Of a stretch of DNA of 34,125 nt, positions 10,023 through 24,369 are shown piece by piece; positions within the stretch are counted from its first letter, which is position 1, and the number at the start of each line of letters is the position of its first letter. Origin of the DNA: Lachnospiraceae bacterium. Its GTDB lineage: Bacteria > Bacillota > Clostridia > Lachnospirales > Lachnospiraceae. A program made the translations under genes and the position numbers. A model generated the notes under the pieces. That model saw only the letters and a list, made by a program, of their open reading frames with translations. It ran no database searches and was not told the DNA's origin. The stretch is taken from positions 1 to 34,125 of the forward strand of contig JAEEGO010000083.1 in NCBI GenBank assembly GCA_016280355.1, given 5' to 3'.

Positions 10023-12689
10023 ATGGCTGTAAACATAGGCCCACGGATAGGCATCGACGGCGAAGCTGAATATAGAAAGCAGATCAACCAGATCATCCAG
10101 CAGACCAAGACCCTCAAGAGCGAGTACGACAAGCTGGAATCTGCAGGCGAAAAGCAGAACACAACTCTGAAAAAGAACGCCGAGATGCACAAGGTGCTCT
10201 CGCAGCAGATAGAGACGCAGAAGGAGCGGGTCAAGCAGCTGTCAGAGATGGTGCAGCAGTCCTCAGAGAAATTCGGTGAGAACGACACCAAGACACTCAA
10301 ATGGAAAGAGGCCCTCAATCAGGCTGAGACCGAGCTGAACAATCTCGAGACAAAGCTCAGAGAGCTCCCTTCAAGCCTCGAGCTCGTGGGTCAGAAGATG
10401 GAATCCATCGGAGGATCCATCAAGAACGCAGGGGACAAGATGACCAGCTTCGGACAGGCCATCGCTCCGGTATCAGCTGCAGCGGCAGCGGGACTCACGG
10501 CATCAGCCAAGACATTCATGGACTTCGAGAAGGGAATGTCAAAGGTGGCAGCCATATCAGGAGCCACTGGAGAGGATCTCGAGGCTCTCACTCAGAAGGC
10601 CAAGGACATGGGAGCTACGACGAAGTTCAGCGCTTCAGAATCAGCCGCGGCATTCTCATACATGGCTATGGCCGGATGGAAGACGGAGCAGATGTTGGAC
10701 GGCATAGCACCGATCATGAATCTTGCGGCGGCATCCGGAGAAGATCTGGCGCTGACCTCTGACATCGTGACCGATGCGCTGACGGCATTCGGACTCAAGG
10801 CACAGGACGCTGGAATGTTCACGGACGTGCTGGCAGCGGCATCCTCGAATTCAAATACAAACGTCGCCATGATGGGCGAGTCCTTCAAGTATGCCGCGCA
10901 GGAAGCTGGATCTATGGGATACAGCATTCAGGACACGGCGCTGGCCCTCGGACTCATGGCCAATAACGGCATCAAGGCTGACATGGCTGGTACTGCCCTC
11001 AGAAATATCATCCAAAGAATGGCAAAGCCCACCAAAGAGTCACAGATGGCCATGGACAGGCTCGGAATATCTCTTGCCGATGACGAGGGTCATATGTACT
11101 CACTCAGGCAGATCATGGACAAGCTGAGGGGCTCCTTCGGACAGATCAATATGCCGATGGAGCAGTTCGATGCTCAGATGGAGCTCCTTATTGAGCAGCT
11201 GGAGAACGGTGAGCTGACTGAGAAGAAGTTCGGAGATGCCACAGACGAGCTCATCCAGCAGGCATATGGCGCGGAAGCCGCCGAGAAGGCAAGAGCGGCC
11301 GCTATGCTCGCAGGAGCAAGGGCAATGCCCGCACTCCTTGCTGTGGTCAATTCTACAGCTGAAGACTACGACAAGCTCGCTGAAGCTATAGACGGAGCGA
11401 GTGAGCCGATGGCCAAGCTTGCAGACGGCTCCATAGTCCCTCTGTCGGAGGCAATGGCATCCGGGCAGGAGATCCTCGAGACCTACACGGGAACTGCTGA
11501 AGAGATGGCCAAGATCATGGAGGATAACGTCGCCGGATCCTGGACTCAGGCAAAGTCCGCCATGGAAGGTGCAGCAATAGAGGCCGGAGAAGTTCTCGCG
11601 CCGTATCTGGAAAAAGCAGCCGAAAAAGTCAAAGAGCTGGCTCAGTGGTTCGGATCACTTGATCAGGAAACACAAGACACTATCGTCAAGACGGCGGCTC
11701 TCGTGGCAGCAGCAGCTCCGCTCCTGATCACAGGAGGCAAAGTGGTATCCGGTGTGGGATCTCTGACACAGGCAGGCGGAAACGTCCTCCAGATGTTCGG
11801 GAAGTTAGTACCGGCACTCGGCACAGCATCAGGAGCACTCGGAGGAGCGGGATCATCAGCTGCAGCAGCCGGAGCAGGAATCGCCGGAATCGCGGCGCCG
11901 GTCGGAATAGCAGTCGCCGCTCTGGCCGTCCTTGCCGGTGCATTCGTCACCGCATACCAAAATGACGAGGAATTCGCCAGAGAAGTTGATACATCGATGG
12001 CCGAGGCAAAGCAGGCCATCACAGACCTGATAAACACCGTAAAGCCTGCATGGGATGCATTCAGCGAAGGCATGGCGCCTATATTCGTGGCCGGAATCAA
12101 GGCGATTACGCGCGCGATCGATAATTTCCACATATATCTGCAGGGATTCATGGACGTGGTGGCCGGATTTCTCACCGGAGACTGGAAGCGCGTATTCACC
12201 GGAATGCAGGAGATGACGGCGGGCGTGGTCAACAATATCATCAGCAAGTTCGAATTCATGCGCGACATGATCGAGGGCATTTTCAAAAATGCGGACATCC
12301 AGTTCCCGCATATAAAACTCCCTCACTTCAAGGTATCGGGATCCTTCTCACTTAATCCCCCGAGCACTCCGTCTTTTTCTGTTGACTGGTATCAGAAGGC
12401 CATGCAGGGCGGCATGAGGCTAAATGGCGCAACCATATTCGGAGCGATGGGGAACAAGCTGCTCGGCGGAGGTGAAGCCGGGCCGGAGTGGATAGTCGGA
12501 GAGAGTTCGCTCATGGGAATGATCCACAGCGCAGTACAGAGCGGATATGTGGGAGGAGGAAACACGATAAGCATCGGCGACACAAACATCATCATCAATG
12601 GAGCCGGTGAGAACGCGGAGGAGATAGCTGACCGCGTTGACGAGATAATCACATTAAGGCTACAGCAAGTGGAGGCGGCATGGGCTTAG
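10023..12689 (+). CDS. Tail tape measure protein
   Basis: 888 aa; N-term coiled coil; TP901-type core (MDFEKGMSKVAAISGATGEDLEALTQKAKDMGATTKFSASESAAAFSYMAMAGW). Confidence 0.95.
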   Translation: MAVNIGPRIGIDGEAEYRKQINQIIQQTKTLKSEYDKLESAGEKQNTTLKKNAEMHKVLSQQIETQKERVKQLSEMVQQSSEKFGENDTKTLKWKEALNQAETELNNLETKLRELPSSLELVGQKMESIGGSIKNAGDKMTSFGQAIAPVSAAAAAGLTASAKTFMDFEKGMSKVAAISGATGEDLEALTQKAKDMGATTKFSASESAAAFSYMAMAGWKTEQMLDGIAPIMNLAAASGEDLALTSDIVTDALTAFGLKAQDAGMFTDVLAAASSNSNTNVAMMGESFKYAAQEAGSMGYSIQDTALALGLMANNGIKADMAGTALRNIIQRMAKPTKESQMAMDRLGISLADDEGHMYSLRQIMDKLRGSFGQINMPMEQFDAQMELLIEQLENGELTEKKFGDATDELIQQAYGAEAAEKARAAAMLAGARAMPALLAVVNSTAEDYDKLAEAIDGASEPMAKLADGSIVPLSEAMASGQEILETYTGTAEEMAKIMEDNVAGSWTQAKSAMEGAAIEAGEVLAPYLEKAAEKVKELAQWFGSLDQETQDTIVKTAALVAAAAPLLITGGKVVSGVGSLTQAGGNVLQMFGKLVPALGTASGALGGAGSSAAAAGAGIAGIAAPVGIAVAALAVLAGAFVTAYQNDEEFAREVDTSMAEAKQAITDLINTVKPAWDAFSEGMAPIFVAGIKAITRAIDNFHIYLQGFMDVVAGFLTGDWKRVFTGMQEMTAGVVNNIISKFEFMRDMIEGIFKNADIQFPHIKLPHFKVSGSFSLNPPSTPSFSVDWYQKAMQGGMRLNGATIFGAMGNKLLGGGEAGPEWIVGESSLMGMIHSAVQSGYVGGGNTISIGDTNIIINGAGENAEEIADRVDEIITLRLQQVEAAWA

Positions 12690-13393
12690 TATATGAATAT
12701 TTGATGTTCGCGGGAACATCATCAGAAGACTTCAAGGCACACATCTCGGGACAGGGCACATTCCTGTCCCCGGAGCGTGATGTCGAGACTATATCAGTTC
12801 CGGGCCGGAACGGAGACCTCCACATCGACAACGGCAAGTTCAACAATATTATCATCACATATCCGGCATTCATCACAGAGGACTTCGATCGGAATTTTTC
12901 GGCCCTGAAGGCTTTTCTTTTGTCACATTCAGGATATGAAGTCCTCGCAGACTCATATCATCCGGATCACTACAGGAAGGCAAGATTCACAGGCAAGATC
13001 GAGCCGGACATGGCCCCGAGGAACACAGCCGGATCATTCGAGCTGTCTTTTGACTGCGATCCGAGGCTTTTTCTCAAGAATGGCGTCCAGACGGTCACAC
13101 TATATGGAGATGATCAGCTGTACAACCGCACGCTGTATTCTGCAAAGCCTCTCCTGAGAGTATACGGCACCGGAATGCTTACAATCGCCGGCACATCCAT
13201 GCAGATCACGACAGCTGAGGAATACACAGACATCGACTGCGAGATCGAGGAAGCCTTCAAAGGTGATGTAAATTGCAACGGGAACATCATTCTCGCAGAT
13301 GGGCGCTTCCCTGAGCTTCCTCCGGGCCTGATAGAGATCACCATGGAGGATATAACAAGACTGGACATTATTCCAAGGTGGTGGACAGTATGA
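12680..13393 (+). CDS. Distal tail protein (Dit-like)
   Basis: 237 aa after tape measure; VPGRNGDLHIDNGKFNN...ISYPAF-type pattern. Confidence 0.85.
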   Translation: MGLVYEYLMFAGTSSEDFKAHISGQGTFLSPERDVETISVPGRNGDLHIDNGKFNNIIITYPAFITEDFDRNFSALKAFLLSHSGYEVLADSYHPDHYRKARFTGKIEPDMAPRNTAGSFELSFDCDPRLFLKNGVQTVTLYGDDQLYNRTLYSAKPLLRVYGTGMLTIAGTSMQITTAEEYTDIDCEIEEAFKGDVNCNGNIILADGRFPELPPGLIEITMEDITRLDIIPRWWTV

Positions 13394-15273
13394 AGCCGAG
13401 ATTATTCGCAGAAGGCGCGACAGAATTCAATACAAACGGAATAGGAACCCTGTCTGATGCCATATCGTGTACCGTTTCAGAAGAGAGAAATGGTAAGTAC
13501 GAGCTCGAGCTGGTATACCCTGCCACAGGGAAGCACTACGAAGACATTATAAACCGGGCGATCATAGCGGTCATTCCTTGCAAGGATGCCACACTGCAGC
13601 CGTTCCGCGTATATCAGATTTCAAAGCCTATCGGGGGCAGAGTCACGATCAACGCCAGACACATCGGCTACGATCTCGCGAAGAATACAGCGATGCCCTT
13701 CAGCATCGAGGCATCGACGACGGCCTGCAATGATACCCTGCAGGCGCTCAAGACGAACGCCGTCGAGACGTGCCCGTTCACCTTCTGGACGGATGTGCAC
13801 ACTATATCAAGTTATACACAGCTGACACCTTCGACCATCAGACAAAGGCTCGGAGGCATCGAGGGCTCAGTATTGGATCAGTTCGGCGGAGAGTATGAAT
13901 GGGATAAGTTCACCGTGAAGCTCCACAGCCACAGAGGACATGATCTCGGAGTCCGGCTGAGATATGGCACGAACATCACCAATCTGACACAGGAGGAGAT
14001 CATCGCCGAAACCGTGACAGGAGTCGTGCCATATTGGTCTGACATGAACGGATCCGAAGTGATCACTCTTCCGGAAAAAGCCGTGTATTCACAGTATGCG
14101 GACAGATACTCGAGCAGGCTGACCATCCCGCTGGACTTTTCCGGACAATATCAGGAAGCTCCCGACGTGGCCACACTCAGAGCCGCAGCCGAAGCATATA
14201 TCACCAAGCACGACATCGGAGTCCCGACAGTCTCTGTCAAGGTCTCATTCATTAATCTGGCGGACACGCTCGAATATGAGGACATGAAATCCCTGCAGAG
14301 CGTCCATCTCTGCGACACTTTGACAGTGCAGTTTGAAAAGCTCGGAATCGATACACAGGCGAAAGTCTCAGCCTACAAGTGGAATGTCCTCGCGGAACGA
14401 TATGACGAGATCACGGTCGGCTCTATACGCACGAGCCTGGCCACATCGATCAATGACCAGAACAGCGCGACCACGGCCTCGATCGACAAGACCAAAGTCC
14501 AAGCCGGGAACGCCATCAACAAAGCCACGGCATGGCTTTCATCCGGTGACGGCTACATCGTAGCCATTAAAGGCACGGATGGAGAGTGGAAGGAGCTGCT
14601 CGCGATGGATACGAATGACATCGAGACGGCTCAGAAGGTTATGCGCCTGAACGAGAACGGACTCGGAGGATCCTCGCACGGTATCGATGGCCCATATGAA
14701 GCAGCCATCCTCGTGGATGGCACCATCGTCGCGGATGCGGTCAAGACCGGAATCCTCACAGATCTGAATGACAAATTCTATTTGAATATGGAAACCGGCG
14801 AGCTGGTCATGAAAGACGGCACGTTCACAGGACTCATCACCGGTTCTACGGCTCGGTTCGGTAGCGGAAATCTACAAACTACATTGAGCTACGGACCGTC
14901 AGCAGGATTTGACGGGCACGACGCGCTTTTAATCTCGGGTAATGACCGTATAGCCATCGAGAGCACCGACTATCAGGTTCGCATGGTGGGGACGAGCACC
15001 CACATGGGCACGCACTCGGGGAATACCTATATAAACACGAATGAGAACTATATAGGTGTCATGGCAAAAAAGATGTCTACCATAACCGGGGGAAATACAC
15101 AGCTGGTCGTTAGCGATACGGGAAGCGTCTATATCAACAACGGACGGCTCACGGATTACGTGGGATTGATAGGGACGGATGAGACGAAACTAATGACCTA
15201 CGAAGCCAACAACCACAAATATCTTGCCGTATATGTTAATGGCTCATCATACGGCAGCGTACAGCTGAGTTAA
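13378..15273 (+). CDS. Tail-associated protein (Tal / prophage tail endopeptidase-like)
   Basis: 631 aa; FNTNGIGTLSDAISCTVSEERNGKYELELVYP; position. Confidence 0.85.
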   Translation: MVDSMKPRLFAEGATEFNTNGIGTLSDAISCTVSEERNGKYELELVYPATGKHYEDIINRAIIAVIPCKDATLQPFRVYQISKPIGGRVTINARHIGYDLAKNTAMPFSIEASTTACNDTLQALKTNAVETCPFTFWTDVHTISSYTQLTPSTIRQRLGGIEGSVLDQFGGEYEWDKFTVKLHSHRGHDLGVRLRYGTNITNLTQEEIIAETVTGVVPYWSDMNGSEVITLPEKAVYSQYADRYSSRLTIPLDFSGQYQEAPDVATLRAAAEAYITKHDIGVPTVSVKVSFINLADTLEYEDMKSLQSVHLCDTLTVQFEKLGIDTQAKVSAYKWNVLAERYDEITVGSIRTSLATSINDQNSATTASIDKTKVQAGNAINKATAWLSSGDGYIVAIKGTDGEWKELLAMDTNDIETAQKVMRLNENGLGGSSHGIDGPYEAAILVDGTIVADAVKTGILTDLNDKFYLNMETGELVMKDGTFTGLITGSTARFGSGNLQTTLSYGPSAGFDGHDALLISGNDRIAIESTDYQVRMVGTSTHMGTHSGNTYINTNENYIGVMAKKMSTITGGNTQLVVSDTGSVYINNGRLTDYVGLIGTDETKLMTYEANNHKYLAVYVNGSSYGSVQLS

Positions 15274-15286
15274 TAAAGGAGGAATC

Positions 15287-18200
15287 ATGGCAATCACACA
15301 GCACATCGATCTCAATCTCATACCGAACAGCGCTCCGGTCGTCGTTCACGTGGATCAGTATGACCACGGCACGGGCCGGATCATAGCGTCACTATATGAG
15401 GACTCGACACCGTACACACCGAGCGCGGCGTCGGTATATGTACAGGGTACAAAGCCGGACGGGAAGTTCTTCGTCTCTTCTGACGGCGTGACACTCGAGG
15501 GCAATGTCGTCACGGCAGATCTCACCGAGGTCATGACGCAAGTGGCCGGTCAGGTCAGAGTCCAGTTCGTAGTCACGGAGCAGACGGGCAGGACTGGCAC
15601 GTTCGTCTTTTGGCTCGATGTGCAGGCTTCAGCCCTGCCGGATAACAGTCAGATGTCTGAGTCTGATATTTCCATGGTCGAGGAAGCCATAGAGACCATG
15701 CAGGGATACGTCTCCGACTCTGCCGAGAGCGCACAGGAAGCAGCTGCATCAGCTACAGCTGCATCACAGAGCGCGGAGGACTCCGAGGCGTGGGCTGTCG
15801 GCACAAGGAACGGAGAGCCTGTTTCTTCAGATGATCCGACTTATCACAACAATTCAAAATACTGGGCCGAGCATGGTGGCGGCGGAGGCGGCCACGTCAT
15901 CATGAACAGCGAGGGAGAGGATATGCCCGCTCGAGGCACCCTCCAGTTTTTAGGCATGAATGTTCGCGACGATGCCACGCACGGCATCACCATCGTGGAA
16001 GGCGGATCCGGAGGGTCAACAATAAAGGTCCACACCAGTGAGGCATCTCTCGCCGGTGAAGACGTGACTCTGACCGACGGCACCGACACCATGACAGAGA
16101 CCTTCGACGAGAACGGGGACGCCACGTTCATGGGAGTGACCATGACCGGAACCCTGACCATCTCATCGACAGACGGAACCGACACAGCAGCCGGAACGGT
16201 GAGCGTGCCATACTTCGGAGTCTATTCGCAGAACATCTCGTTCTGGTCGGCCACCATCCAAGTGTCTACCACGACATCCATATTCGACGGACTGACTGTA
16301 TATGCAAAGAAGAACGGCACGGTCTACGGCTCGGCTGTCTTCTCGAACGGTTCAGCATCAATCACAGTTCCGGAAGCCGGAACCTATACGCTCGAGGTCA
16401 CATATGACTGGAAGACATACCAGAGCGACGCGGTCAATGTATCGGCGGAGACCACATACAGCGTGACGTTCAACGGATTCGCGGAAACCGTGAACGTGAT
16501 CGGAGATTCCGCATTCGCAAATCTCCCCGTCACGATCAGCTGCAGCGGAATGCCGACACAGACCAAGCAGCTGGATGCGAATGCCGAGCTGTCATACCTC
16601 GCACTCCAGCCGGGGACGTATACGTTCTCAGTGGAATATCAGGGCACACCATACTCAGTACAGCAGGTTGTCACCACGGGAGGTCCTTTCACTGTACAGC
16701 TGCAAAGATGGACAGCGACGCTCCAGTTCTCAACTACATCCCCCGGCATGGATGGACAGCGTATATATGTATCGCTCAATGGCTCGGTGATAGGCTCGGC
16801 TGTATTCTCAAATGGCTCGGCCTCGCTTGACATACATGGGACGGGCACATATGACATCAGCTGTACTGTGAGCGGATTCACGTACACGGATCAGGTCGCA
16901 GTCTCTCAGGAGACCACGTACAACGTAACCCTAAACACTTTCGATGCCACGGTGAACATCTCGACGACATCGAGCGAGCTGTACGGGGCCACGATAACGA
17001 TCAAAAAAGACGGAGCCAATTATGCCACGACGAGTTTCAATAACTCCGGCTCAGCATCTTACGTGATCCATGAACAGGGGACATATACATTCGAGTGTAC
17101 CTATGGCGGAGAGACATTCTCTGACGAGGTTCAGGTGACATCACAGACGACATACACGGCGACGATTAACACGTTCAACGTGACGATCACAGCCGCTGCA
17201 TCGGTGCTGGAGGGCGAGACTTTAACAGCCACCAACGGCACCGACACAGAGACAGCTACCATCACCAACGGAGAGGCAAAATTCCGCCTGCCCGCAGGAG
17301 ACTGGGAAGTGGCTGGAATCCCAATGACAATAGTGGCTGGACAGACCTATTCGGAGCAGATCGTGATCTTCGGCTATCATTACAGCGAGACCGACAGTGA
17401 CCCCGCCAGTGGAGACTATCCGACCGGATATGATAACACCGGCTGGACTCCTCTTGCGATGGATCTCGGATCAACCGGAGCGCCTACATATAACAGCTGG
17501 GATCCCGAAGGCACCAACAAGGACATCCTGAAGTGGTTCTATCCGAAGAGCTGCATGGTGAAGTATGACGGCACCGTAGACTACTATCTCGACGAAGACG
17601 ACGAGACGAAGAAGGCGGACGGCACCGCGTCTGATGTAGCAAGCTCGGCTTACGGCGGAAACGCTATGATCGAATGGGGGCAGGACGGCAAGAGGATATA
17701 CTGGAAGATCGTACCTGACAGTGGCAATGACGGCTGGACATTCAAGATCTCCAATGCAGAAGTGCTCGGCCTGAAGCCGTGGAACCACTACGACATCAAC
17801 GGCAAGCCCAACAGACACTGGTATGAGGCGAAGTACTTCGGATCATCGGACGGAACAAGGCTCCGCTCAATCTCCGGAGGCTCGAACTACGTGAACAACG
17901 CCGGCACGACAGAAATCTCTCTGGCTGAAGCAAACAACCTGACGACCAACAAGCTCTGGACGACCGGGACCTTCGTCGATTATATGTTCTTTGCGCTTGC
18001 AAGCACGTTGATCACAAAGAACCTCAACTGTCAGGCGGCTCTTGGAGCAGGACGGAGCGCGTCGGGAAATACCTCGGCAATCGGACAGGGCACCATGAAC
18101 GGCAAGGGCAGATTTTACGGGAAGAGCAACGGCACGGAAGGCGTCAAAGTCTTCGGGGTAGAGAATCCCTATGGAAATATATGGAGGCGCATACGGGGCC

Positions 18201-18577
18201 TGATAAACATCAACGGCTCGTACCGGATAAAGATGACCTACGACCAGACGGACGGCTCGACGGTCGACGGATACAATACGGATGGTTCGGGATATATCAA
18301 TGCCGGAAGCATAGGAACTACAGCGACGTGGGTATATCCGAAGCACGATATAGTCCGCGACAACTGCCTGCTGGCACAGACCAACGGAGGAAGTGAAACC
18401 ACATACTATTGTGACGGCACATACCTGGCGGCAAGCGGTACGTTCTACGCCGTTGTGGGCGGCAATTGGAACAACGCGGGCCGTGATGGGCTCTTCAATG
18501 TCATTCTCAACGCTACGGTCTCCGTTACCGCCACCGACTTTGGCGCGGCCCTGTCTTTGAAACCGCTTGCAGCGTAG
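15287..18577 (+). CDS. Receptor-binding protein: BppU-like N-terminus, tandem Ig-like domains, C-terminal C-type-lectin/FGE-like domain carrying the DGR variable region
   Basis: N-term HIDLNLIPNSAPVVVHVDQYDHGTGRIIASLYEDSTPY; about five ~78-aa beta repeats; C-term VENPYGNIWRRIRGLININGS...VVGGNWNNAGRDGLFNVILN; 3' end nearly identical to downstream TR. Confidence 0.92.
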   Translation: MAITQHIDLNLIPNSAPVVVHVDQYDHGTGRIIASLYEDSTPYTPSAASVYVQGTKPDGKFFVSSDGVTLEGNVVTADLTEVMTQVAGQVRVQFVVTEQTGRTGTFVFWLDVQASALPDNSQMSESDISMVEEAIETMQGYVSDSAESAQEAAASATAASQSAEDSEAWAVGTRNGEPVSSDDPTYHNNSKYWAEHGGGGGGHVIMNSEGEDMPARGTLQFLGMNVRDDATHGITIVEGGSGGSTIKVHTSEASLAGEDVTLTDGTDTMTETFDENGDATFMGVTMTGTLTISSTDGTDTAAGTVSVPYFGVYSQNISFWSATIQVSTTTSIFDGLTVYAKKNGTVYGSAVFSNGSASITVPEAGTYTLEVTYDWKTYQSDAVNVSAETTYSVTFNGFAETVNVIGDSAFANLPVTISCSGMPTQTKQLDANAELSYLALQPGTYTFSVEYQGTPYSVQQVVTTGGPFTVQLQRWTATLQFSTTSPGMDGQRIYVSLNGSVIGSAVFSNGSASLDIHGTGTYDISCTVSGFTYTDQVAVSQETTYNVTLNTFDATVNISTTSSELYGATITIKKDGANYATTSFNNSGSASYVIHEQGTYTFECTYGGETFSDEVQVTSQTTYTATINTFNVTITAAASVLEGETLTATNGTDTETATITNGEAKFRLPAGDWEVAGIPMTIVAGQTYSEQIVIFGYHYSETDSDPASGDYPTGYDNTGWTPLAMDLGSTGAPTYNSWDPEGTNKDILKWFYPKSCMVKYDGTVDYYLDEDDETKKADGTASDVASSAYGGNAMIEWGQDGKRIYWKIVPDSGNDGWTFKISNAEVLGLKPWNHYDINGKPNRHWYEAKYFGSSDGTRLRSISGGSNYVNNAGTTEISLAEANNLTTNKLWTTGTFVDYMFFALASTLITKNLNCQAALGAGRSASGNTSAIGQGTMNGKGRFYGKSNGTEGVKVFGVENPYGNIWRRIRGLININGSYRIKMTYDQTDGSTVDGYNTDGSGYINAGSIGTTATWVYPKHDIVRDNCLLAQTNGGSETTYYCDGTYLAASGTFYAVVGGNWNNAGRDGLFNVILNATVSVTATDFGAALSLKPLAA
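18448..18556 (+). repeat. DGR variable region (VR)
   Basis: 109 nt matching TR 18676-18784 at constant offset 228; 14 mismatches, all opposite TR adenines. Confidence 0.95.
18542..18556 (+). other. Putative IMH-like GC-rich 3' end of VR
   Basis: ggcgcggccctgtct at the VR 3' boundary, invariant with TR except A-to-G at cct[a/g]tct. Confidence 0.55.
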
Positions 18578-18610
18578 CGAGCGGAGTGAGCGAAGCGTGA
18601 AAAGGGTGAA

Positions 18611-18649
18611 TGCCCGAAAGGGCAGAGGGGAAACGGCAACGGTTCCCCT
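18611..18649. other. Two inverted repeats between VR and TR
   Basis: tgccc-gaaa-gggca (18611-18624) and aggggaa-N10-ttcccct (18626-18649). Confidence 0.75.
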
Positions 18650-18675
18650 CAAAGGGATATAGAGAGCGCCACTCG

Positions 18676-18784
18676 CGCCATTGTGGGCGGCAATTGGAAC
18701 AACACGGGCCATGATGGGCTCTTCAATGTCAATCTCAACAATACGGTCTCCAATACCAACACCAACAATGGCGCGGCCCTATCT
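18676..18784 (+). repeat. DGR template repeat (TR)
   Basis: Noncoding near-copy of VR, 30 adenines of which 14 are replaced in VR; 11 AAY codons in the VR reading frame; directly upstream of RT. Confidence 0.95.
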
Positions 18785-18903
18785 CATCCAATCTGGAGAA
18801 CAACTGAATGCTCTCTATGTTCCTCGTCTCTCGACGAAAATCAACTCGATGCAAGCGCCTGCCGGTAGCACAGCACCAGCGAAAGCGGGCGAGAGGATAA
18901 GAC

Positions 18904-20004
18904 ATGAAAACACACAGACATATGTTTGAGGAGATCATTAAAGACGACAACCTCGAGCTTGCAATCAAAGAAGCCTGCAGGAGCAGGAAGAAAAGCCACA
19001 AGAAGAAGACACGCCTCGAACGCTTGAAGACAGATCCGGACAGAATAAAGAAGGTCAAAGACTGGATCCTGAACTATATCCCCATGAGGAGACGGCCACA
19101 TGAGATCTATGACGGCATCGCCAGGAAGAAGAGACAGATCTACGTCCCTTCGGTCCGGGAGACTGTCGTACAGCACGCCGTCATACAGGTGCTCAACAGG
19201 CATCTGATGAATGGAGTATATGAGCATACCTACGCAGCTATCAAGGGACGCGGGCAGCATAAAGCAAAGCAGTACGTCGAGAAATACATCAGGAAGTACC
19301 CAAAGGATGTCAAATACTACTTGAAGATGGGCATCAAGCAGTACTTCCCGTCAGTACCGCAGGACGGACTAATAGCAAAGCTCGAGCGAGAAGTGAAAGA
19401 CACCCGGACAGTCGACCTCGTCCGGATGATACTCTATGCGAGCGAAGACGGCATCCCACTCGGATATTATATATCGCAGTGGTTTGCGAACTACTATCTC
19501 CGCGACATGGATCACAGGATCAAGGACATGGTCGGGAAGAACCTATATATCAGATGGATGGACGACATGGTAATCTTCGCGGGGAATAAGAGAGAGTTGC
19601 ACCGGTACAAAGACACCATCGCGGATATGCTTGCAGATCTCGGCCTGCTTTTAAAGGAAAACTGGAGGATAGAGAGATTCGATCACAGGAAGGGCGGATG
19701 CTTTCTTGACTTCATGGGATTTAGATTTTATCGAAACCGCACAACACTCCGGCGGACCATCTACTATAGGATGACCAAAAAAGCCCGGAGGATAGCAAAG
19801 AAGGAGAAGCCGACCATCTTCGAGATGAAGCAGTTTCTCTCATATCTCGGATGGATAAAACACTCGGACACATACGGCGCGTATCTCGAATACGTTAAGC
19901 CCTGCGTAAGTATACAATACATCAAGCGACGAATATCAAGGCATGACAGAAATACTCGAAAGACAGGCGAAAATAATAGCAGAGCTGACCCAGCTGCTGC
20001 ATGA
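18904..20004 (+). CDS. DGR-type reverse transcriptase (motif A Asp replaced by Gly)
   Basis: 366 aa; LGYYISQWFANYYL (LGxxxSQ motif 4), YIRWMDDMVIF (motif C), GCFLDFMGFRFYR; motif A context YYLKMGIKQYFPS. Confidence 0.93.
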   Translation: MKTHRHMFEEIIKDDNLELAIKEACRSRKKSHKKKTRLERLKTDPDRIKKVKDWILNYIPMRRRPHEIYDGIARKKRQIYVPSVRETVVQHAVIQVLNRHLMNGVYEHTYAAIKGRGQHKAKQYVEKYIRKYPKDVKYYLKMGIKQYFPSVPQDGLIAKLEREVKDTRTVDLVRMILYASEDGIPLGYYISQWFANYYLRDMDHRIKDMVGKNLYIRWMDDMVIFAGNKRELHRYKDTIADMLADLGLLLKENWRIERFDHRKGGCFLDFMGFRFYRNRTTLRRTIYYRMTKKARRIAKKEKPTIFEMKQFLSYLGWIKHSDTYGAYLEYVKPCVSIQYIKRRISRHDRNTRKTGENNSRADPAAA

Positions 20005-22465: not shown

Positions 22466-22500
22466 CGTTCGGGTTCGAATCCCGTCTATCGCTTTTTCTT
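22466..22500. other. attP: Candidate attP core, resembling a tRNA gene 3' end
   Basis: cgggttcgaatcccg T-arm-like hairpin followed by tctatcgctttttctt; adjacent to integrase; flanked by arm-site repeats. Confidence 0.7.
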
Positions 22501-22648: not shown

Positions 22649-23677
22649 TCACTTGACGCCCTCTTTTTTAATTATTTCATCGAGATGGGAGTTCATCCGG
22701 TCGGCGTAGTAGTCCGACAGGGACAAGATATTATTTTGATATACTGATTTCATGACAGGAGCGTTCCCGGCCCTGCTCCATCCGCCCATGTCGGCCATGT
22801 ATAGATCTGGGATGGATAAGGCCACACCGGTCGAAGCGTAGAAATGACGGAGCCCGTGGAGGCTTATGTCATACCCGAGACGCTTCGCAAGCCTTCCGAA
22901 TGCCTGTCCGATGCTATTCGGATTCAGCTGCACTATGAAGCCGGAGCCGGTGCCTATGATCTCGAGCACGGCAGCGGGCAGCTTCAGGATCCTGTCAGAT
23001 CCCTCAGTCTTCGGGAGCTCTTTATATATCCATTTACCATTGACGCCCTGCACCATGTCCGCGTGGATATGAGCACAGCCGTCCTTTATGTCTTCATACT
23101 TCAGAGCGGCGATCTCTCCGCGACGCATCCCACACATCGCCAGAGCGATGCAAGGCTTCAGGCGCGGATTCGCCTCTGCAATAAGCCGGGAGACCATATC
23201 ATCCGAAGGAGACACGGGCCTTCTGACAGTTTTGGCCGGAAGCGTCACCCTGAAGACAATATCCGGATAATAGAAGCTGATCGAGGCCCTGACGAGCCCG
23301 TATCGATTCCGGACAGTCTTCGCGGAGAGCTTCGCGGACAGGAATGAGACGTATGTCTGCAGATCCTCGCTCGTGAGTCTCAGCACCTTCTTCGATAGAA
23401 GCCCATTAAAATCATCATCAAGCATCCTCTGATACTCCCGCAGCGTAGACGGCGACAGCACGCCCTCCTTCGCTGCGAGATATCCACGGATGCAGTCCTC
23501 GACGCTGTAGTCGCGTATCGTCCTGCGATGCTTTCCGGATTTAAACTCTGCAGCCTTGAGCTCGGCCTCTGTCTTCGACGGGGCCGTGATGCTGACATAT
23601 TTCCGCTTCCCGTTCTCCATGTGGGAGAAGACCATGACGTTCCATGAGCCGGATTTTAATTTTTTTGCTTTCGGCAT
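22649..23677 (-). CDS. int: Tyrosine recombinase / phage integrase
   Basis: 342 aa; AMCGMRRGEIAALKYEDI, LHGLRHFYAS, catalytic-region Tyr near C-terminus. Confidence 0.95.
   Translation of the reverse strand: MPKAKKLKSGSWNVMVFSHMENGKRKYVSITAPSKTEAELKAAEFKSGKHRRTIRDYSVEDCIRGYLAAKEGVLSPSTLREYQRMLDDDFNGLLSKKVLRLTSEDLQTYVSFLSAKLSAKTVRNRYGLVRASISFYYPDIVFRVTLPAKTVRRPVSPSDDMVSRLIAEANPRLKPCIALAMCGMRRGEIAALKYEDIKDGCAHIHADMVQGVNGKWIYKELPKTEGSDRILKLPAAVLEIIGTGSGFIVQLNPNSIGQAFGRLAKRLGYDISLHGLRHFYASTGVALSIPDLYMADMGGWSRAGNAPVMKSVYQNNILSLSDYYADRMNSHLDEIIKKEGVK
22653..22675. terminator. Terminator-like inverted repeat overlapping the int stop region
   Basis: aaaaagagggc-atcacttgac-gccctctttttt at about 22636-22671. 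Confidence 0.65.
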
Positions 23678-24369
23678 TACTTAAAGACCTCACTCGCACC
23701 ATGCTGGGCCTGCTCTGACGTGAATCCCTCATATTCCAGCTGCTGCTTGAGACTATCTTGAGAGAATCCGCCCATGTCCATATAGCTCTCGGCACATTTT
23801 ACAGCCTGTTCATTCCAATCAGCCCCGCAATTCTCGGCGCCATACTGGGCCTGATCCGGAGTGAATTTCTCATATTCCAGCTGCTTCGCAAGTCCGCTCT
23901 GGCTGAAAGCCTGATGATCGAGATATTGCGCGGCAGACTTGAGAGCCTGCTCCATCCAGTCGGCTCCGCAATTATCAGCGGCCCATGTAGCATCATCAGT
24001 AGAGAATCCCTCATATTCCAGCTGACCAATGAGGCCATCATGTGAGAAGGCCGTGTGGCTGAGATATTGCGTCGCAGACTTGAGCGCCCGGTTCTGCTCT
24101 GTCGTTCCTTGCGGGAGATCCGCGGCAGCACTAACCTCGGCACCGGCATCCTCGAGAACCTTCTGGAGATCATCGACAGCCTTCGAGAGATCCTCAGCGG
24201 CTTTGGATACCGATTCGGATGCAGCCTCTGACGAAGCCTCCTCTGTCGAAACCTCTTCGGTCTGAGGCTCGGAAGTACCCGCTGATGAGTCAGAGCTCAC
24301 ACAGCCCACCAAAAGAGCGGCGCTCGTTACAGCGCCAAGTACAACAGCAGCATATTTTTTCATTTTCAC
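23677..24369 (-). CDS. Ltp-type surface lipoprotein (putative superinfection exclusion)
   Basis: lipobox-like LVGC; three ~48-aa repeats (ALKSATQYL...FSHDGLIGQLEYEGFSTDDATWAADNCGADW). Confidence 0.9.
   Translation of the reverse strand: MKMKKYAAVVLGAVTSAALLVGCVSSDSSAGTSEPQTEEVSTEEASSEAASESVSKAAEDLSKAVDDLQKVLEDAGAEVSAAADLPQGTTEQNRALKSATQYLSHTAFSHDGLIGQLEYEGFSTDDATWAADNCGADWMEQALKSAAQYLDHQAFSQSGLAKQLEYEKFTPDQAQYGAENCGADWNEQAVKCAESYMDMGGFSQDSLKQQLEYEGFTSEQAQHGASEVFK

Follow-up and report, generated by a model that had tools for sequence, protein, structure and literature searches.

A probably active diversity-generating retroelement acting on a tail adhesin gene in a Lachnospiraceae siphophage

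Diversity-generating retroelements (DGRs) are catalogued in large numbers, more than 30,000 so far, and the domains annotated as carrying their variable repeats (VR) have C-type-lectin folds (PMC8144416). The DGR of Bordetella phage BPP-1 has the order mtd-avd-TR-brt, makes an adenine-specific transfer from its template repeat (TR) to its VR, and acts on a tail adhesin. Reverse transcription in BPP-1 is halted by a motif that lies where avd ends, immediately 5' of the TR; the spacer recruits the reverse transcriptase (RT) and primes cDNA synthesis (PMC12875486). Of the DGR RTs encoded in complete genomes, about 62% co-occur with Avd-like genes (PMC8934634), and thus DGRs without Avd are already known and form a large minority. 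Among these are DGRs of rumen and gut phages, namely the IMG/VR loci L002, L003 and L005, the Butyrivibrio phages Idris, Arawn and Closwp03, and the Faecalibacterium phage FP_Epona. The RT of Idris and Arawn was observed to be part of a DGR with both TR and VR (L015 5492-5844 and L016 3492-3844).

The window analysed here is a MAG contig in its full length of 34,125 bases. Its element shares with the rumen and gut group the VR-TR-RT layout, the kind of spacer RNA, a stem bracketing the TR and a homologous variable domain, but differs from it in RT sequence (34-93% identity) and in the N-termini of the target proteins. With BPP-1 it has in common the order of the elements except avd, the adenine-specific transfer, the RT family, a target that is a tail adhesin of (here predicted) C-type-lectin fold, a GC-rich inverted repeat 3' of the VR (here a candidate) and possibly, on the side of BPP-1, a weak pairing around the TR. 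Unlike BPP-1, it has no Avd, only short gaps on either side of the TR, WMDD in place of YMDD, a longer bracketing stem and a hairpin farther from the VR.

Judged from its sequence, we read the element as a complete and probably active DGR in a temperate siphophage, whose host very probably belongs to the Lachnospiraceae, with a probability of about 0.96. A DGR diversifying the phage receptor-binding protein is also what the initial annotation had proposed, and the adenine-only TR/VR pattern, the DGR-type RT, the predicted fold and the independent VR variants in relatives bear this out. Against this reading stand the absence of any Avd that we could find, the WMDD box, a spacer that scores below Rfam thresholds and the recovery of just one near relative (L002) from the collections searched. 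DGRs of this kind being well known, the further interest of the locus is in its layout without Avd and in the covarying stem around its TR. It also lets one see directly which part of a phage adhesin is diversified, and its host family is of importance in rumen and gut.

Table 1. Positions in the window of the DGR, its target and the neighbouring tail genes
Feature	Position	Strand	Basis or remark
Tape measure gene	10023-12689		upstream of target
Dit gene	12680-13393		phrog_33 Dit
Tal-like tail protein gene	13378-15273		directly 5' of target gene
Target gene, 1096-aa tail adhesin / putative receptor-binding protein	15287-18577	+	ORF; match to tail protein family phrog_5302 (E 3e-61)
BppU-like N-terminal (baseplate attachment) domain of target	15311-15703	+	PF10651 BppU_N, borderline
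C-terminal variable domain, predicted C-type-lectin (formylglycine-generating-enzyme-like) fold	17360-18574	+	AlphaFold2, Foldseek
VR (variable repeat)	18448-18556	+	21 nt left between VR end and target CDS end
GC-rich hairpin TGCCC-GAAA-GGGCA, candidate target-recognition inverted repeat, GRNA loop	18611-18624	+	54 nt 3' of VR
Second GC-rich hairpin, GAGGGGAAACG-gcaa-CGGTTCCCCTC	18625-18650	+	
5' arm of TR-bracketing RNA stem, AGGGATATAGAGAGCG	18653-18668	+	
TR (template repeat)	18676-18784	+	aligned to VR
3' arm of TR-bracketing RNA stem, TGCTCTCTATGTTCCT	18809-18824	+	
Structured spacer RNA (Sp), related to Rfam RT-18 / RT-4 RNAs	18823-18903	+	
DGR reverse transcriptase, 366 aa	18904-20004	+	PF00078 E 2e-15; phrog_1423

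The repeat pair, the reverse transcriptase and their relatives

Re-alignment returned exactly the repeat coordinates, the gapless 109-nt length and the 14 mismatches that had been counted by hand in the initial annotation. All 14 fall on adenines of the TR, which are replaced in the VR by G (8), T (4) or C (2); mismatches at other TR bases, which the same annotation had held would speak against a DGR, are absent. Since the TR has adenines at 30 of its 109 positions, the hypergeometric probability of finding 14 of 14 mismatches on them is 9e-10. The homology ends abruptly at either side. In the VR frame the differences amount to nine amino-acid changes (I>V, T>A, H>R, N>I, N>A, N>V, N>A, N>D, N>F) and one silent one (CTA>CTG), and the TR holds 11 AAY codons, a recount which agrees with the earlier figures; 29 of the 30 adenines occupy codon positions 1 or 2.

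Towards its 3' end the VR has a GC-only stretch, GGCGCGGCCC, followed by a single A/G difference, and this is a candidate IMH. This difference, at TR 18781 and beyond the GC-only block on its 3' side, is the silent A>G change; the VR of L002 also has G at that site. It may be a fixed difference between IMH and IMH* (VR-side and TR-side initiation) and not a mutagenesis event, in which case 13 clear mutagenesis events remain.

The ORF downstream of the TR, for which a DGR-type LGxxxSQ motif had been reported, is intact and groups with DGR RTs. Its motif reads LGYYISQ, of the LGxxxSQ and not the QGxxxSP type, and its phrog family also contains the bRT of BPP-1, whose structure (8ub7) is the best PDB match of the A1 profile of the RT (E 1.5e-45). 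The catalytic box, of the form xMDD, is WMDD (window 19555-19566, RT residues 218-221), as it is in L002, L003 and L005. YMDD is found in 103 of 127 related DGR RTs, and WMDD is limited to the small clade to which the window belongs.

Taken alone, the window offers no more than an RT beside a duplicated 109-nt segment, which might have arisen by chance, or by the simple duplication of the end of a gene that happens to lie beside an RT of another kind (retron, abortive-infection or group II intron type). A role in prophage immunity has indeed been proposed for the homologous RT in the Idris genome paper, where the retroelement goes unmentioned (PMC7372960). Besides the improbability of the adenine pattern and the closeness of the RT profile to BPP-1 bRT, it is the comparison with relatives that tells against this origin. 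The nearest of them, L002, has an RT 93% identical to that of the window and a TR that differs by one base, and yet the two VRs differ at 21 of the 30 TR-adenine sites, against 1 of the 79 other sites; this sole exception tracks a T/C difference between the two TRs. Across the window, L002, L003 and L005, wherever a TR has a base other than A at a column that varies among the TRs, its own VR matches it (102/102). Such tracking is the mark of concerted, repeated copying from TR to VR, which duplication does not predict. Moreover, the adenine pattern has recurred independently in more than 100 loci. On these comparisons a chance or duplication origin is already refuted, and we regard it as scarcely credible.

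The same regularity holds within each relative and between them. TR/VR mismatches lie at adenines in L002 (19/19), L003 (15/15) and L005 (16/16), so that the adenine-only pattern persists in relatives having WMDD. Ten TRs are common to at least two loci, each with different VRs whose differences are nearly all at TR adenines; for phages Idris and Closwp03, which share a TR, the VRs differ at 13 positions, all of them A, and the upstream bases are identical (300/300). Over 127 non-redundant elements, 1865 of 1935 TR/VR mismatches are at adenines, a figure inflated by a search criterion that favours adenine mismatches. The replacements of changed adenines across all VRs (G 1019, T 575, C 433) resemble those of the window. 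Thus VR variation in related phages, the lack of which the initial annotation would have counted against a DGR, is present and is confined to TR adenines. A blastn search of the VR-RT stretch of the window against phage genomes gave no match, and therefore there is no near relative among named phages; in the collections searched by exact DNA patterns, L002 was the only further copy of the same phage.

The diversified tail protein

That the target acts as a tail adhesin is supported by gene order, the BppU-like N-terminus, Ig-like repeats in the middle of the protein and the predicted C-type-lectin fold of the variable domain. Matches also include phrog_1067 and related tail families, and the match to PF10651 BppU_N is borderline (E 7e-5, 23.0 bits against a cut-off of 23.1). 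The VR is located in the C-terminal 405 residues, for which AlphaFold2 gave a model of high confidence (mean pLDDT 95.0, pTM 0.94). When this model was compared with the PDB by Foldseek, eight matches had E < 0.001 and all were DGR variable proteins: three chains of Thermus aquaticus TaqVP (5vf4; best E 3e-9, probability 1.00) and five variants of BPP-1 Mtd. The next match, Treponema TvpA (2y3c), had an E of 0.5. TaqVP is the closest solved structure (13% identity), but with a TM-score of 0.45-0.49 for the model as a whole the arrangement is only partly shared. When a 34-member alignment of the variable domain was used, sequence searches found no significant PDB structure and no Pfam domain, and thus the kinship is visible by fold comparison only. 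The predicted fold agrees with that of the VR domains annotated in other DGRs.

From the position of the target after tape measure, Dit and Tal genes, together with its BppU-like start, we infer with good reason that the protein binds a receptor, and diversification would then tune host receptor binding. Alternatively, the DGR could be real and active but act on a protein other than the receptor-binding tip, one whose ligand is, for example, mucus, host debris or another bacterium. Some support for this comes from the ability of phage Ig-like domains and lectin folds to bind mucus glycans as well; on the other hand, the gene order and the BppU-like N-terminus are those of a siphophage adhesion device, and the predicted fold matches Mtd, which is the receptor-binding protein of BPP-1. 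We consider a non-receptor target unlikely.

Avd and the template RNA

No scanned ORF of the window matched either PF22296 or phrog_3206, both of which recognise the Avd of BPP-1 (the positive control, E 2e-37 with PF22296), and PF22296 likewise found no Avd in the whole MAG, which is 80% complete, and nothing above cut-off in 36 relative phage records, many of them fragments. As an Avd probe PF05635 proved uninformative, its control giving no match, and PF22296 was used instead. The gaps between VR and TR and between TR and RT are 119 nt each (median about 134 nt in relatives), too short to leave room for an avd gene. To judge from this gene content, the RT-RNA complex of the window has to do without Avd or rely on a different helper.

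The two GC-rich hairpins between VR and TR have counterparts in relatives. The first has the GRNA loop expected by the published rule for target-recognition inverted repeats (PMC3240598), and the pair, at 18611-18650, lies farther from the VR (54-69 nt) than the 4-34 nt reported. Beyond them begins a 16-bp stem whose arms enclose the TR and which forms part of the minimum-energy structure predicted for 18651-18903 (z -3.8). We measured flank pairing in relatives by ungapped helix scores with permuted partners, RNAduplex energies being diluted by long bulged pairings. Among 125 loci, 62% of flank pairs showed pairing at a selection-matched threshold when tested with their own partner, against 2-6% when permuted. 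In 73 anchored stems, positions 7-13 are paired 95.1% of the time, a share that drops to 46.8% (sd 1.8) with permuted partners, and all four Watson-Crick types occur at every one of these positions; the counts ignore phylogeny, but the arm sequences vary greatly. The outer ends, in turn, are conserved, reading AGGG on one side and UCCU on the other. Stems of a similar kind are present in DGRs that are much more distant, those of Psychrobacillus phage Perkons, the crAss-like cr52_1, Vibrio phage VP58.5 and the archaeal virus ANMV-1, and in BPP-1 there is perhaps a weak pairing of AGGGCAGGCTGG with CTGGCCTTTCCT. Separately, the ends of the TR itself are complementary in the window and in L002 (about 18674-18686 with about 18764-18776, CGCGCCAUUGU and ACAAUGGCGCG); as a general feature this was rejected, the relatives scoring 6.0 with their own and 5.7 with permuted partners.

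Since the 5' arm stands at the place matching the stop motif of BPP-1, the stem may be a stop for reverse transcription. A broader proposal is that a near-universal stem, with 5'-AGG...CCU-3' ends and a covarying middle, brackets the TRs of bacterial and archaeal virus DGRs, whether or not they have Avd, that the template is delimited by this stem, the 5' arm of which is the cDNA stop, and that in the Avd-less group the stem and a spacer RNA of RT-18 or RT-4 type replace the role that Avd has in BPP-1. Covariation was shown for the group of the window; for the proposal as a whole, which is tentative, we would put the odds somewhat against.

Scanned with Rfam, the spacer of the window gave one weak match, to RT-4 (RF03025), with 23.3 bits and E 0.31, below threshold. 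Relatives differ in this respect, matching RT-18 (RF03021) or RT-4 exactly between TR and RT: RT-18 reaches the gathering score in the spacers of L002, L003, L005, L020, L010 and L009 (in the last of which no TR/VR pair was found) and RT-4 in those of L012, L014, L018, L022 and L023, while RT-17 (RF03020) coincides with the spacer more weakly. Thus, in the loci examined, the orphan families RT-18 and RT-4 appear by sequence to be DGR spacer RNAs. Of wider use are the linking of orphan Rfam families to DGR spacers and a compact Avd-less DGR whose template RNA has its limits marked by a covarying stem; both make DGR function without Avd testable.

In the DGR as we picture it, the TR transcript would be held between the arms of the 16-bp stem and followed by the structured spacer, and the RT would bind this transcript and begin cDNA synthesis in the region of the TR 3' end and spacer. 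Misincorporation opposite adenines would follow, until the RT halted near the 5' arm, and the cDNA would replace the VR with the help of the GC-rich hairpin 3' of it. With each round the residues at the adhesin tip would change and hence, most likely, the host-surface molecule bound.

Several of these features might also be read as decay, in a DGR that was active until recently but has since died or is dying, for instance because Avd was lost, the box changed to WMDD or the spacer RNA eroded: there is no Avd in contig or MAG, WMDD is restricted to a small clade, and the spacer of the window scores low against the Rfam RNAs and has no UAGUA motif. Yet phages with clearly varied VRs are also without Avd, and the WMDD relatives have 15-19 adenine-only differences each. 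The UAGUA motif is missing in 34 of 126 loci, for which reason we rejected its loss as a mark of decay. Furthermore, the RT ORF is uninterrupted, and all non-A bases are identical between the TR and VR of the window, from which it follows that the last homing was recent. A dead or dying element is thus quite improbable, and an active DGR is the reading that we retain.

The phage genome

The contig is that of a siphophage and encodes terminase, portal, tape measure, Dit and Tal proteins, an endolysin of the glucosaminidase type and, on the minus strand, an integrase, from which we take the phage to be temperate. Beside the integrase gene (22649-23677), at 22466-22494, there is a sequence resembling a tRNA 3' end (GGGTTCGAATCCC...) which is a candidate phage attachment site; no second copy of it was found in the 80% complete MAG. 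Adjoining the integrase gene on its other side is a lipoprotein gene (23677-24369, minus strand) with three Ltp repeats (PF07553, E 1.6e-40), a candidate for a prophage superinfection-exclusion lipoprotein. Near the start of the contig, an ORF at 179-1435 begins with a ParB-type domain, to which an adenine methyltransferase domain of the D12 class is joined, and includes a repetitive LQALxxLEALQRLEALQRLEA stretch.
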